From: a virus
Reading direction: 5' to 3' (one strand)
DNA length: 64,000 bases
IMG/VR virus record: IMGVR_UViG_3300047469_000197
Coordinates: 31,131-95,130 of that record
Shown piece by piece: positions 3,549 through 55,523 of the stretch. Positions within the stretch are counted from its first letter, which is position 1, and every line of letters starts with the position of its first letter. Position numbers and translations under genes: made by a program. Under the pieces are notes generated by a model. It was given only the letters and a program-made list of their open reading frames with translations. It made no database searches and was not told the origin of the DNA.

Positions 3549-4048
3549 TAACGGTTGCTCTTAAGACGCCAGCACAAGCCCGCGCCGGTTTCACGGCTAA
3601 CCAGCGCAAACTCTTCGGCCAGCTGGTAGCTGATGGATTCGACCAGGCTGTCGCTTTTGGGCATCAACCTGGGGGAGTGGGCTTCAGGCATGCCACAATG
3701 CGTCATGATTTCGCGTGTACGCTCCCATACGGGGCGCATGATGTTTTCGGGTAGCCAGTACCAGAACGTTCGGCCAGGCTCTGCACGGGAATGGATCTCA
3801 TCGCTGCGGAGGTGCTGCATATCCACCAGCGCACGTAACCTGGTCAGGCTTTGTGATTCACCTAATCCACACTGGAGGTGTTTACGGTTAGCGGCCAGCT
3901 GGCGGATCGCGCGTGGGAAATGGTCCTCACTGGCCATGCTCACGCGTTCGCCGACATAGCGCTGGATGGCACGATAGGGAAGGTACTTAATGGTCTGGCA
4001 GAAGATGGCGTGCATCAGCGCGTCGTCAGTCACTTTCATCATAACCAC
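3548..4048 (-). CDS. Hypothetical protein
   Basis: 166 aa, starting MVMMKVTDDALMHA; either of the first two in-frame ATGs near 4048-4039 could be used. Largely helical and basic in the centre (RQLAANRKHLQCG), which may mean nucleic-acid binding, but no family is recognised. The gene is chained by short overlaps to the tiny membrane-protein genes on both sides. Confidence 0.65.
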   Translation of the reverse strand: MVMMKVTDDALMHAIFCQTIKYLPYRAIQRYVGERVSMASEDHFPRAIRQLAANRKHLQCGLGESQSLTRLRALVDMQHLRSDEIHSRAEPGRTFWYWLPENIMRPVWERTREIMTHCGMPEAHSPRLMPKSDSLVESISYQLAEEFALVSRETGAGLCWRLKSNR

Positions 4049-10259: not shown

Positions 10260-11759
10260 TTAGTCCTTGAGCCAGTCCAGCGCCTCATTACGGCGGCTCT
10301 CATCGGCCCTGCTGATCACCTCGTTCGCCGGGATGTAATCTGCCAGTTGAGTAAAGCAGAAGGTATCCCAGTGATCGGGCGATTTCAGGTTAAGCTTCGC
10401 CCTCATCTGCTCTTTAGGCATGCACACCCATTGGCCTGCCTCATTGAGAAATACCGGGATTTTGCTCGCCTGGTCAGTGGTTTTCCCGCCCTTATCAAAT
10501 TTCATACGGCCCTGTCGCACGGCGTTGGCCGCATAGACGTTTGCATATGCACGCTGGTTGATGAACCGCTTACGCAGCTCTTTGTTGTGAAGCGGGAAGC
10601 CCCATCGGATGCGCTGCGCAATCACGCCGTGCTTCTCTTCCAGTACGTCCGCCGTTGTGGCACCCACGCCATCTCCATCGATAACAATCGTGATGTTCGG
10701 GTACACCTCCGGATCACATTCGCTGTAGATGTAGTCCGCGAAACGTGACGGGGTCACGGTGGATTCCATTTCCAGCACCTTAAATGGCACCACGCGCCGG
10801 TGTTTTCCGTAGCCACTGATGCGGAATATTGAGAGTACCGACTTATCGCGACCGTTACCCACGTCGCAGCACGCCACCCAGCCCCAGCCCTTAGCCAGGT
10901 ATACATTACGCCGCATTGCGCGATCGCAGTCGTCACGGCCCAGCAGGAAGCCGGATATGGAGGATGGGAACTCACCGCGCACCTTGATGAGGTATTCCGG
11001 ATTCTCCCGCCCGCCGTAGTCCACCAGCTTTTCCCGGATGAACTGCAGCGTAACCAGTGGCGACTCTTCGCTGTTGAGGCGGATCGCCCTATAGATGCCG
11101 TTCGGGTTCTCCGGAGTGACAGCCAGGCGGTGATGTGAGTCATAAAACTCCCCGCTGGTCCGCGTGGGCTGCGAGATGAGCAACAGGCGGTTATCTTCCT
11201 GCGTCAATGCGCCCTTGATGAAGCCAAACGCCTTATCTGATACGCCGGATGCCTCATCGATAATGTAAAGCAGGTGTTCGGCGTGTTCGCCGGCTAGCGC
11301 TTCTTCGTTACCCAAGCGGAAGCCTTTGGGCACCACTTCCCATGCACCCTTAGACTCGGTGGCGAAAAACATCATGTCCGTGAGCGTGAAGTACTGATTC
11401 AGCCACGGGAAGCGCTTAAGGCAGACTTTCCAGTTTTCACGGAGGTACTTGAATATCCCCGTCTTAACCTGCTGCAGCTTGTTCGCCACGATAATGACGC
11501 GGGCGCCGGGGAAGAACAGCATGTAGCAGAGAATCATGATTGAGGTCATATCTGACTTTCCGGTACCGTGTCCGGAGGCGACCGTGGTCTTACTGCCTCC
11601 TTCCTGTACGGCCTCAATAATCATTTCCTGCTGCCATGTCGGGATCTTGCCAAACATCACTTCTGCGGCGCTGATCCAGTCGTATCGGTACAACAGAACC
11701 AGCTCCTGCCAGCGCGGGTCATCTAATACCGAGCGCTTAGCCTTATTGCTGGTGGCCAT
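10260..11759 (-). CDS. pacB: Terminase large subunit (PacB-like)
   Basis: 499 aa. Phage DNA packaging ATPase-nuclease. Walker A is GHGTGKSD at residues 63-70; Walker B is LLYIIDEAS at ~163-171, followed by the ATPase coupling motif region LLISQPTR. The nuclease domain includes [16 protein letters not shown] near residue 290 and [14 protein letters not shown] near 360, with acidic residues in RNase H-like positions. P1 PacB is of similar length. GGAG lies 9 bases before the ATG. It overlaps the end of pacA by 17 bp, as expected for a terminase operon. Confidence 0.9.
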
Positions 11760-12972
11760 CGTCTACATCTCCATACAGATGGTTGTTAATCTCTTCGTCC
11801 GGCTCTTCACCATCAGCAAAGTCCGGCATCAGGTTCAGGTCATTCAGTGAGCCGTCAGCGGACACGTCACCCGCCCCCATGTCGTCCACAATCACGTTGA
11901 CGGCTTCCCGCTTCTCGGCCAGCGTGATTTCTAACTCGGCCATACGTGTGGCGCGCTGCTCACGTGCGCGGCGATCCAGCTCTGCCAGGTCAACAGGCTG
12001 TGAGTTAATGTCTTCTCCTGCCCCTTCTTTCATCTCTGCGCGGGCCAACTCCAGCAGCAGAGAAGGAACTTTGAAGCCGTTCGCCTCGATGTAGATGGCT
12101 GTTTCCATGGCGGTCCACTTCTCTGCCTTGCGGCGTGCGTAAGCCTCCATCACACGCTCTGGCTCTGAGAGTTTGCGCAGGTGGAGCTGCTGTTCGCGTT
12201 GGTCTTTGGAATAGCTCTGGCGGAGTCCGGCCATGGTGCGGGCGGTATCGTTGATGCTGGCTGCGGCTGCAGCGAGAACGGAAACGGCTTTGTTGATGGT
12301 GGGCGGCTCATCCTCGCCGGGTACGTGTTCTTCCAGGTGGGCGAGCATTTCAGTAACCGCGCGCTCAAGGGCAAACTGATTAACGAGGGCGCTGCGTATC
12401 ATTCTCGCCTCAATGTCATCGACACCGGCGCGGCTCATCAGCGCCTCGGCTTCCGCGAGATCGTTGTCGTCCGGGACGAGGGCACCAACCAACACCTGGC
12501 CGCCAGCTTTACTCTGATCACCGGCGCGCCCCGACTTGGTCTTTTTGCCGACAACATCCATCAATTGTCCCGTGAGCACACTCGCGGGCGTTTCAGCACC
12601 GGGGGCCGTGTCGCGTGCCTTGGCGGCGCGCACCTGCTCACTTAACGCATTGATTTTACTGGCGGTGGTTTCCCGCTCGCCCACTGAGGTTTGATCACGC
12701 TTGTGATCAGTTTTGCTTTTGCGATCAATTGATCGCGGAGGTGTTTTTGATCGCGAAACTGATCGCGGGGCTGTTTTGGAGGCAGATTTAGCTCCCACCT
12801 GACTGGTTCCCACGCCCAGGTTACGGCGGGCTGTGCCGTGATTTAAATCATATAAATCAGCATATTCCTTTATCGTAACGTCCTGCTTCTGCCTCATCTG
12901 GGCTAGGCGTTCTCTGTGTTCATTCCAGTCCGTTTTCACTTCGCGATCACCGTCTATTACTACGTTGATCAC
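11743..12972 (-). CDS. pacA: Terminase small subunit / pac-recognition protein (PacA-like)
   Basis: Up to 409 aa. In P1, PacA binds and helps cut the methylated pac site. The N-terminus ([20 protein letters not shown], then [20 protein letters not shown]) closely parallels the helix-turn-helix start of P1 PacA as I recall it. A basic Ser/Thr/Lys linker (~60-110) is followed by a long helical region and an acidic C-terminus ([13 protein letters not shown]) that could contact PacB. The first usable codon is the GTG at 12972; a GTG at 12939 (VKTDWNEH) fits P1 better. GATC-rich clusters lie inside codons ~70-94 and across the start. Upstream neighbour in the opposite direction is parM. Confidence 0.85.
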
Positions 12973-13029
12973 CGATTCTATTGATCGTTACATCTGCCGT
13001 GATCAAGGTTTTCTCGCACCCGGTGATCA
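12692..13029. other. Candidate pac site: two clusters of TGATC hexamers
   Basis: Six GATC tetramers lie at 12693-12764 and five at 12945-13028. Every one is within a TGATCA or TGATCG hexamer on one strand or the other. P1 pac has the same design: clusters of GATC hexamers inside the start of pacA, cut only when Dam-methylated, with a bend region between. Here the ~180-bp spacer includes an AT-rich tract (12840-12872) that could bind IHF. Confidence 0.85.
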
Positions 13030-13157
13030 CGTTCTCGCCATTTGTCGGACGAATTACCGTTATTTTGTTGCAATTTACCCGACATTTCGTAAGATGAACC
13101 CGCAACAATCAATCAATCACTTATGTAATTCGCTTAAAAGTTAGGGAAAATTTAGAT

Positions 13158-14264
13158 ATGACTAAAAGTGCACAAACCCCTGTTTTCGTTGCTGTCGATG
13201 GTGGCTCAGGCAATATCGCAGTGCGTTACACCGACGATCAGGGCAATGACGTCTTCAAAATTTCACCGTCACTCATTCGCCGTGGCCTGCTTCAGCAGGG
13301 TACGCAAGAATCTACTTCGACGTGGTTGACCGCCGATGGTGCGCTGTTCTCGGTTGTTGACGATGGCACCAGCATGGAGCTGGAGAACACCTGTGACACC
13401 ATTTACCAGCTGTCTGCGCAAAACCGCGTCCTGGTGCTGGATGCACTGGTTAAAGCGGGCCTGAGCGGTCGTGACGTGGTTATCGCCGATACGCTGCCTG
13501 CCGATCAGTTCTATGGCGACAACGGCATTAACTACGCCCGCATTGAGGAAAAGAAAAAGAACCTCATGCAGCCGATCACCAGCTACACCGGTGCCATTAA
13601 GCCGCCGCGCGTTATCCACTCGGTGATCATGCCGGAAGCCGTTACCGCTTACGTCAGCGCCAGCGTCAGCCCGGACGGCACGCTCAACCCTGCGTTCGAA
13701 GGCGTGACGCGCTGCATCATTGTTGACCTTGGCCGCTTCACCTGCGATATCGCCGTGGTAAACAGCTCGCTTGACGTCCTGAACCGCATCACCACCGAGC
13801 ACGGTATTCACGTGATGGTTCAGCGCCTCTATCACCTCATCCAGCTGCATGAGAAGGAGCTGGGCCTGAGTGAGTCCAAAGAGCTTAATATGGCGTCTAT
13901 GGATGGCTTCATTGAGCGCGGCTACATTGGTTCACAGGCAAAAGCCCGCGAAGCACACCGTAAAGATATCCGCCCTCTGATTTTGCAGGCGGCGCAAGAG
14001 CTGGCTGAACAGATTAAGAGTGACATCCGCGCGGTGACGCACGGTTTCGCTGATGATATCGATATGCTGCTGTTTGTTGGCGGCGGGGCTAACTGGCTGG
14101 GCGGTGCGCTCGAGTTCGTTGGCGATCTGAGCAGTGACTGGCACGACTACACCCATATTCCGGCTCACCCGGAGCGGGCTGTCGTTGATGGTGCATTCCT
14201 CATGCTGGAGCAGCGTAAGGCGCACATCATGGCCGAGCTCACGAAGCCCGTAACGGAGGCGTGA
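13158..14264 (+). CDS. parM: ParM-like actin-type plasmid segregation ATPase
   Basis: 368 aa. Polymerises into filaments that push sister plasmids apart (type II partition). Actin-fold signatures: N-terminal phosphate loop VFVAVDGGSGNIAVRY, second phosphate segment CIIVDLGRFTCDIAVV near residue 190, and adenosine motif MLLFVGGGANWLGGAL near 300. AGGGA precedes the ATG. It forms an operon with the ParR-like gene 1 base downstream. The 185 bp upstream holds part of the pac cluster and an inverted TGTCGG pair, where a parC centromere would be expected; clear iterated repeats were not seen. P1 itself uses ParA/ParB, so this module is a replacement. Confidence 0.9.
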   Translation: MTKSAQTPVFVAVDGGSGNIAVRYTDDQGNDVFKISPSLIRRGLLQQGTQESTSTWLTADGALFSVVDDGTSMELENTCDTIYQLSAQNRVLVLDALVKAGLSGRDVVIADTLPADQFYGDNGINYARIEEKKKNLMQPITSYTGAIKPPRVIHSVIMPEAVTAYVSASVSPDGTLNPAFEGVTRCIIVDLGRFTCDIAVVNSSLDVLNRITTEHGIHVMVQRLYHLIQLHEKELGLSESKELNMASMDGFIERGYIGSQAKAREAHRKDIRPLILQAAQELAEQIKSDIRAVTHGFADDIDMLLFVGGGANWLGGALEFVGDLSSDWHDYTHIPAHPERAVVDGAFLMLEQRKAHIMAELTKPVTEA

Positions 14265-14265
14265 T

Positions 14266-14754
14266 ATGGCAGAGAATGACGCCCGCAAACGTGATGCTTT
14301 AACGTTTTCTATCACCGCCCAGGTGCGAAAATCAGCGGCTTCATGCCGTTTTGTAGATGAATTTCGTGCATCGGGAGAACACGCCGAAAAGCGTGCCAAA
14401 GTGATTGCGGCGCTGCGTTCTGGTCAGATGCTTGAAGAGGCTGGCTTAGAGCCAGTCCTCGCATTCCTGGACACGGAAGGGTTTGAAAACCTGAATGTGA
14501 GAGAGCGTCAGCTGCTTGTGCTGGCGCGATTGCAGGATTTTATGGGGGTTAATCCCCATACTGCACCCGTTGCCGTCCCGGTGGAGGTTGTCGCACAACC
14601 ACCATCAGCCCAGGAACAGCAGGCAGAAGAGCCAGAAACTCAGCAGCAGGCCACATCCGAAAAACCGGATGAAAAGCCACCAGCTGAACCACCAGTTGCA
14701 GATAAGAAGCCCAATCCGATGCTTGCTAATTTCGCCAGCAAGCTATCTGGCTAA
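14266..14754 (+). CDS. parR: ParR/StbB-like partition adaptor
   Basis: 162 aa. Follows parM by 1 bp. The N-terminus (RDALTFSITAQVRKSAASCR) looks like the ribbon-helix-helix domain that binds the centromere. A central helical part and a Pro/Glu/Gln-rich linker (EQQAEEPETQQQ, EKPPAEPPV) lead to a short conserved-looking tail (NPMLANFASKLSG) that would bind ParM. The call rests mainly on position and architecture. Confidence 0.75.
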   Translation: MAENDARKRDALTFSITAQVRKSAASCRFVDEFRASGEHAEKRAKVIAALRSGQMLEEAGLEPVLAFLDTEGFENLNVRERQLLVLARLQDFMGVNPHTAPVAVPVEVVAQPPSAQEQQAEEPETQQQATSEKPDEKPPAEPPVADKKPNPMLANFASKLSG

Positions 14755-15132
14755 TCGTGATCGTCCCATCAGTGAAAGGGCAAGGCGTAATATTTCGCTC
14801 TCTGCCCTTTCCTTCTCATCATCGCTCATCAGCATTACCGTCCGCCGCCTTGGGTCGATCCGTTCCGGATTGCGACAGCGCTTAAAAAAGGCATCATCCA
14901 GGTGCTTGAGGTGGAAGGTTCGCGGCCTGACAGTATCATCAACAATACAGTCCGAATTATGCGATTTCGCGATAGACAGCATACGTAAGTACACTTCGCT
15001 AACCGACGAACGGTATTGTGGATAACGCTTTTTCAACCCTTCTGTAACCTCTCTGGCGCTGGCTGGTCTGCCATGCTCAATGAGGTACTGCGAAATCTCC
15101 CACGATGTAAATCTCTTGTGCTCGGCTGCCAA
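14743..15132 (-). CDS. Putative winged-helix regulator
   Basis: 129 aa from a TTG at 15132 (MAAEHKRFTSWEISQYLIEH). Residues ~8-60 read as a winged helix (SWEISQYLIEHGRPASAREV, then a RYPQYRSSVSEVYLRMLS recognition helix). The C-terminus is basic and helical. It converges with parR and overlaps it by 12 bp. Reminiscent of CaiF/GrlA-type regulators, but this is a guess. A TTAGTAT motif at 15351 points towards it. Confidence 0.55.
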   Translation of the reverse strand: MAAEHKRFTSWEISQYLIEHGRPASAREVTEGLKKRYPQYRSSVSEVYLRMLSIAKSHNSDCIVDDTVRPRTFHLKHLDDAFFKRCRNPERIDPRRRTVMLMSDDEKERAESEILRLALSLMGRSRLAR

Positions 15133-33198: not shown

Positions 33199-33954
33199 TC
33201 ACTTCATCAGATCACGAACTTTAAGCAAATCGTCCATGGTATCCACCCCATGTGCTGACAGCTCATTTAGACGATGAATCCGGATCCTGCCGCCGTTCCA
33301 TAACACCCGCAGTTGTTCCAGCTTTTCCGTGTATTCCAGCGGTGAAATGCCCCACTTGATGAAGTCCAGGAGGAACCCGGCGTGATAAGCATAAACACCG
33401 ACGTGACGCATGAAATAAGCCCGCATGGTGTGATCGTAAATCAGTTGGCCGTCCCGCGAGAACGGCACGCCGGCGCGTGAAAAATACAGAGCGTTGCCGG
33501 TTCTATCCCCCACGACCTTAACCACATTCGGATCGTCCAGCTCGGTGGCCGTAAGGTCGGATACGGCGACCGTCGCCATTTCTGTGCCGCTTACCTTCAA
33601 TAACTGCGCCAGCTCTGCCAGGTGCTCACCGGGAAACATCGGTTCATCACCTTGCAGGTTCACGATCACAGTGCTTTTAGGGATACCCAGCTCGGATATG
33701 GCCAGCGCGATGCGGTCGGTGCCACTGACGCATTCAGAAGGCGTAAGCTTTACCATCACCCCCTCATCAGCAGCTATCCTGCCAATCACAGGATGATCAG
33801 TAACGACGATCACTTTTTCGGCGCCTGACTCTTTGGCGCGATCAATCGTGTGCGCGATCATCGGGCGGCCATTAATGTTTTGCGTGGGTTTCATCGGCAG
33901 GCGTGTTGAGTTCATACGGGCGGGGATAACAACAGTGAACGGGGTGTAACTCAT
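33199..33954 (-). CDS. kdsB: CMP-ulosonate (CMP-Kdo) synthetase, KdsB-like
   Basis: 251 aa, against 248 in E. coli KdsB. Transfers CMP from CTP to Kdo (or a related ulosonic acid). Signature blocks: VVIPARMNSTRLPMKP (nucleotide loop, residues 8-23), SGTDRIALAI, VNLQGDEPMFP, YFSRAGVPFSRD and FMRHVGVYAYHAGFL, then SPLEYTEKLEQLRVLW. All agree with an active enzyme. GGAG lies 9 bases before the ATG. The host already has kdsB for LPS, so a phage copy suggests a special CMP-sugar supply. The nearby DxD glycosyltransferase and two GT42/DUF115-like proteins are possible users. Confidence 0.9.
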   Translation of the reverse strand: MSYTPFTVVIPARMNSTRLPMKPTQNINGRPMIAHTIDRAKESGAEKVIVVTDHPVIGRIAADEGVMVKLTPSECVSGTDRIALAISELGIPKSTVIVNLQGDEPMFPGEHLAELAQLLKVSGTEMATVAVSDLTATELDDPNVVKVVGDRTGNALYFSRAGVPFSRDGQLIYDHTMRAYFMRHVGVYAYHAGFLLDFIKWGISPLEYTEKLEQLRVLWNGGRIRIHRLNELSAHGVDTMDDLLKVRDLMK

Positions 33955-55459: not shown

Positions 55460-55523
55460 AGCCCACCTCAGATGTAACTTTCAATAGAATCAGGGGTGAA
55501 CATCTGTAGAATTTTTTGCATGT

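Follow-up and report, generated by a model that had tools for sequence, protein, structure and literature searches.

The pac site of phage P1 is the textbook methylation-regulated packaging site, and its architecture is known from one phage. Here we asked where pac lies in a 95-kb P1-like phage-plasmid with genes for PacA, PacB, Lpa and a P1-like Dam methylase, and what role is played by a dense group of Dam hexamers around the start of its pacA gene. All positions below are counted within the window, the stretch of 64,000 nt that was analysed out of a record of 95,130 bases.

Dam hexamers at the 5' end of pacA

Counting hexamers of the form TGATCR/YGATCA, we found eleven between 12692 and 13029 in two clusters of six and five, at the positions given by an earlier sequence-only reading of this DNA. 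The two clusters measure 74 and 86 bp rather than the 72 and 84 bp reported there, and a twelfth, conserved hexamer at 12515-12520 had been missed. We refer to the clusters as the L and U arrays and to the hexamers beyond L as D:

12692-12765, minus strand: L array, six hexamers (12692-12697, 12704-12709, 12722-12727, 12730-12735, 12748-12753 and 12760-12765; 74 bp in total), in the pacA codons directly 3' of the helix-turn-helix; positional homologue of P1 HEX4
12944-13029, minus strand: U array, five hexamers (12944-12949, 12966-12971, 12982-12987, 13000-13005 and 13024-13029; 86 bp in total), surrounding the pacA late promoter and leader
12515-12520, minus strand: single intact D hexamer; Pantoea and C. 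freundii relatives keep it equally far from their IHF site
12558-12563, minus strand: decayed D hexamer (TGATGG), which is TGATCA at the equivalent place in C. freundii relatives

The spacer between U and L is 178 bp. Every GATC in 12692-13029 lies in hexamer context (11/11), against 82/332 over the remainder of the window (Fisher p = 4e-7), and 300 first-order Markov sequences of 64 kb with the same dinucleotide make-up reached at most 5 hexamers per 338 bp. No comparable cluster was found elsewhere in the whole 95,130-base record. A Dam-hexamer cluster at the 5' end of pacA, as in a P1-type pac site, is therefore present here. Four hexamers at 33794-33860 form a small group within a gene (33199-33954) that by eye is kdsB-like (CMP-Kdo synthetase); the group looks like chance and was set aside.

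A P1-type packaging locus

The genes around the hexamers are:

11743-12939, minus strand: pacA, small terminase (phrog_1711, E 6e-51)
10260-11759, minus strand: pacB, large terminase (phrog_2, phrog_5902; 62% identical to P1 PacB)
13158-14264, plus strand: parM, divergent from pacA (StbA_N, PF06406)
14266-14754, plus strand: presumed parR, second gene of the parM operon, named by position only
14743-15132, minus strand: lpa, late promoter activator (PF25716, E 2e-24), on the same strand as pacA

The pacA and pacB homologues adjoin, as expected of a P1-type pac locus. The true start of pacA is likely GTG 12939 rather than GTG 12972, because the -10 box of its promoter (12975-12980) places the transcript start after the latter; GTG 12939 also agrees with the PacA protein alignment. 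Whereas lpa and pacA are adjacent in P1, parM and the presumed parR, for which no family match was found, sit between them in this record. The record additionally encodes a 1029-residue Dmt-like protein with cytosine- and adenine-methylase domains (a Dcm and Dam fusion), related to the Dmt of the P1 group. A Dam-type methylase in the same record is consistent with adenine-methylation-regulated cleavage but is no proof of it, and its presence fails to separate hexamer-bearing from hexamer-free phages, since D6 carries one too. The homologues of PacA, PacB, Lpa and Dmt, together with hexamers in the same part of pacA in relatives, bear out the earlier proposal that a Dam-hexamer pac of the P1 type lies where pacA begins.

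Judging from its sequence, the N-terminal helix-turn-helix of PacA would be the part that binds TGATCR hexamers; a PDB sequence search with PacA returned no relative. The AT-rich centre of the U-L spacer (80% AT in one 20-bp bin) consists of the codons for this helix-turn-helix, and the AT-richness is milder in relatives. We also sought a phage-encoded IHF/HU homologue and found none.

A predicted IHF site beside the L array

P1 pac lies inside pacA and is arranged as HEX4 - IHF - cut - HEX3, its four left hexamers corresponding to L and its three right hexamers to D (P1 facts were taken from the annotation of the P1 record and from PMC10028697). Its description in the earlier reading, as seven hexamers in two closer groups, was correct. 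Synonymous changes in the P1 hexamers lowered the titre about ninefold, and the HEX4/HEX3 pac is functional (PMC10028697). The locus described here has in common with P1 the TGATCR hexamers, an L array in the equivalent codon region of pacA, an IHF-type site past L, the PacA/PacB terminase, a phage-encoded Dmt and a late promoter just upstream of pacA. It differs in having an extra five-hexamer array on the late promoter, six L hexamers instead of four, and, in place of the three hexamers of the right-hand array, a single hexamer and a decayed one.

Two features of the core are predicted beyond L:

12643-12655, minus strand: predicted IHF site of pac, perfect consensus AATCAATGCGTTA, at a distance of 41 bp beyond the last L hexamer
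12626-12633, minus strand: predicted pac cleavage zone, obtained by transposing the mapped P1 cuts onto this IHF site

The IHF site, identified by sequence match only, lies beside the hexamer array as in a P1-type pac. It matches the consensus at 9/9 positions, one of 4 perfect matches in 64 kb. Relatives from Pantoea and C. freundii also have a 9/9 match at +41, and a fourth close relative, G354, has a match of 7/9. In P1 the annotated IHF site is offset by +42 from one of the L hexamers, and the reading frame of the site differs between this record and P1. Counted from the start of its IHF site, the P1 cuts map 22 and 28 bp further on (P1 record annotation). Because the site at 12643-12655 is placed like the mapped P1 site, the cut would most likely fall near 12626-12633, outside the interval originally reported and not in its 180-bp spacer. 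In Serratia, Xenorhabdus and C. portucalensis relatives we found no good IHF match in the L-D spacer, and IHF is therefore no universal marker of pac.

The U array and the pacA late promoter

Upstream of the pacA start, the U hexamers are interleaved with a promoter:

12974-12995, minus strand: Lpa-type late promoter of pacA, AGATGTAACGATCAATAGAATC, with -22 element ATGTAACGA and -10 box TAGAAT

Lpa-dependent late promoters are expected to combine a 9-bp -22 element, a 4-nt gap and a -10 box and to recur before late genes, and the layout here agrees with that. Within the window there are two occurrences of AGATGTAACNNTCNNTAGAATC, against 0.01 expected, and a third elsewhere in the record precedes the major capsid and sheath genes; ATGTAACTT/GA-N4-TAGAAT has three copies in the record, one of them before the major capsid gene. 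P1 late promoters contain a 9-bp Lpa site (PMC10695390), and P1 LPpac, ATGTGACTT-N4-TACCCT, matches the layout found here. The copy at 55470-55491 has no recognised late gene directly 3'; the next ORF, of 158 residues, is without a PHROG match.

One U hexamer overlaps the -22 element and spacer of the pacA promoter. Both sibling copies, the one at 55470 and the one preceding the major capsid gene, read ATGTAACTT, whereas the pacA copy reads ATGTAACGA, in which GA replaces TT as the last two bases of the Lpa element and gives a CGATCA hexamer. Among the three copies in the record, only the pacA copy contains a GATC, and Pantoea, G354, C. freundii and a viral contig retain this GATC. An alignment with four close relatives likewise shows the innermost U hexamers to be conserved in all of them and the outermost one to be shared with Pantoea only. 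Given a pacA start at 12939 and a -10 box at 12975-12980, the U hexamers therefore cover promoter and leader, a geometry in which the array could regulate pacA.

Distribution of the arrays among relatives

We compared the locus with about 25 distinct relatives, comprising P1, D6, Cronobacter JK004 and sequences from Salmonella, Citrobacter, Pantoea, Serratia, Xenorhabdus and IMG/VR, and positioned the hexamers in each relative to the helix-turn-helix codons of PacA. Viral contigs were scanned with PacB; scans with PacA as a single protein gave few loci, and querying the phage collection with the nucleotide sequence of the pac region gave no hit. In every hexamer-bearing relative the L array directly follows the helix-turn-helix codons, reduced to a single hexamer in C. 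portucalensis, while the location of the second array varies between downstream (D, as in P1) and upstream (U, as in this record). U arrays of three to five hexamers occur in the window, its close relatives, the C. portucalensis group and one further IMG/VR pair, and three further relatives have two hexamers at the U position; many relatives have L and D and no U. On the PacB tree, U requires at least four changes. No U array was found in relatives with lpa directly upstream of pacA. The proximity of parM to pac, presented as new in the earlier reading, proved to be shared: a divergent parM lies beside pacA in Pantoea, Citrobacter, Serratia and Xenorhabdus relatives, whether or not U is present.

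The relatives most similar in arrangement are plasmid unnamed3 of Pantoea sp. CCBC3-3-1 (NZ_CP034366) and two C. freundii phage-plasmids (NZ_CP145667 and NZ_CP056338), which have U and L as here and also share the IHF offset, the GATC in the pacA late promoter and the divergent parM. They differ from this record by a few hexamers gained or lost, and C. freundii keeps two D hexamers. Cronobacter phage JK004 shares the PacA family and the L array but lacks U, has D in full and carries lpa immediately upstream of pacA. P1 relatives of the SJ46 type share the PacA family, SJ46 itself being matched by protein only. In the C. portucalensis phage-plasmids (L005, 4868-4938), L is nearly lost and the upstream array holds most hexamers.

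Escherichia phage D6 shares the PacA/PacB terminase and a Dam-type methylase but, unlike this record, has no TGATCR arrays in pacA, has lpa directly upstream and carries its GATCs mostly in other contexts. Within its pacA, positions 3573-3913 (L010) hold the densest GATC group of the first 45 kb, almost entirely outside TGATCR context, and the element recognised in D6 may be a relaxed or different one.

Across the family, coding hexamers occupy all three reading frames and encode RS, VI/MI/LI or DH/DQ/DR. Selection therefore acts on the DNA, and we rejected a protein-level cause of the repeats. Spacings between neighbouring hexamers peak at 12 bp (41/125) and 18 bp (17/125), counts that are uncorrected for shared ancestry.

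Proposed roles of the two arrays

The best explanation, to which we assign a probability of roughly 60%, is a P1-type, Dam-methylation-regulated pac with an L-IHF-D core and an added upstream array, U, on the pacA promoter. PacA would bind TGATCR hexamers through its N-terminal helix-turn-helix. L (12692-12765), the predicted IHF site (12643-12655) and the D hexamer that remains (12515) would form the packaging core. IHF would then bend the DNA, PacA/PacB would cut near 12626-12633, and headful packaging would start. The U array (12944-13029) would represent a lineage-specific second group of PacA/Dam sites on the Lpa-activated pacA promoter. It would most likely add PacA-binding capacity to pac, and through the overlap with the Lpa element, bound PacA or the methylation state would most likely limit pacA transcription. 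We see it as possible, though distinctly less probable, that PacA on U shuts its own Lpa-driven promoter while L and D are cut, so that the methylation state sets the timing of the first cut as well as of enzyme supply. Counting against the L-IHF-D explanation, D is down to one intact hexamer and the core is lopsided relative to P1; the C. portucalensis arrangement, with U largest and L nearly lost, is explained at least equally well if U takes a direct part in packaging.

Across the relatives compared, pac is modular, with one array fixed in the PacA linker codons and a second placed downstream or upstream; in this lineage, the second array is upstream and linked to the late promoter of pacA. 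The comparison indicates where pac should be sought in P1-like phage-plasmids. Additional repeats on the promoter of a packaging gene suggest that one set of marks could govern the cut as well as the production of the enzyme that makes it, and a link among DNA methylation, packaging initiation and terminase supply is made directly testable.

The sequence-only reading had instead taken the two reported clusters as the arms of pac around the cut. Under that interpretation, which we consider unlikely, U and L flank a cut in the 178-bp spacer and are merely wider apart than the arms of P1. Eleven of the 12 local hexamers do lie in U and L, so that a cut in the U-L spacer has five and six on its sides, while a cut in the L-D spacer has one intact D hexamer on its weak side; U is also the main array in C. 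portucalensis. However, L matches the left arm of P1, and the perfect IHF match lies on the other side of L at a P1-like offset, the best match in the U-L spacer being 7/9. That spacer encodes the conserved helix-turn-helix, and L-D is the common arrangement, many relatives having it without U. The 'wider spacing' thus probably reflects a separate upstream array on the pacA late promoter and not a displaced right arm. Somewhat less likely again is that U acts solely as a transcriptional operator of pacA, through PacA autorepression or Dam/SeqA control, with no role in cutting. The late promoter is indeed surrounded by U, and one hexamer swaps TT for GA in the Lpa element, but U and L hexamers are of one type and U carries most of the hexamers in C. 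portucalensis.

The position of U also brings plasmid functions into consideration. In ParM-type systems, such as that of R1, parC lies upstream of parM, as U does here, and the gap holds no other iterons. Nevertheless, we regard it as improbable that ParR binds U as the parC centromere of this parM system. Such iterons should be common to relatives of the same arrangement, but in Serratia and Xenorhabdus relatives with the same divergent parM we found no comparable hexamer array in the gap. In addition, the U hexamers are of the pac type, are clustered toward pacA and recur beside quite different ParM proteins. Dense GATCs near plasmid maintenance genes could also recall a replication origin under Dam/SeqA control, an identity to which we give hardly any credence: all 11 GATCs stand in pac hexamer context, which an origin does not require, and no initiator gene was recognised adjacent.

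One further element lies between the U array and parM:

13111-13123, plus strand: second perfect IHF consensus, near the parM start, within a TGATTGATTGATT element (13106-13125)

This TGATTGATTGATT element is kept in the close relatives.
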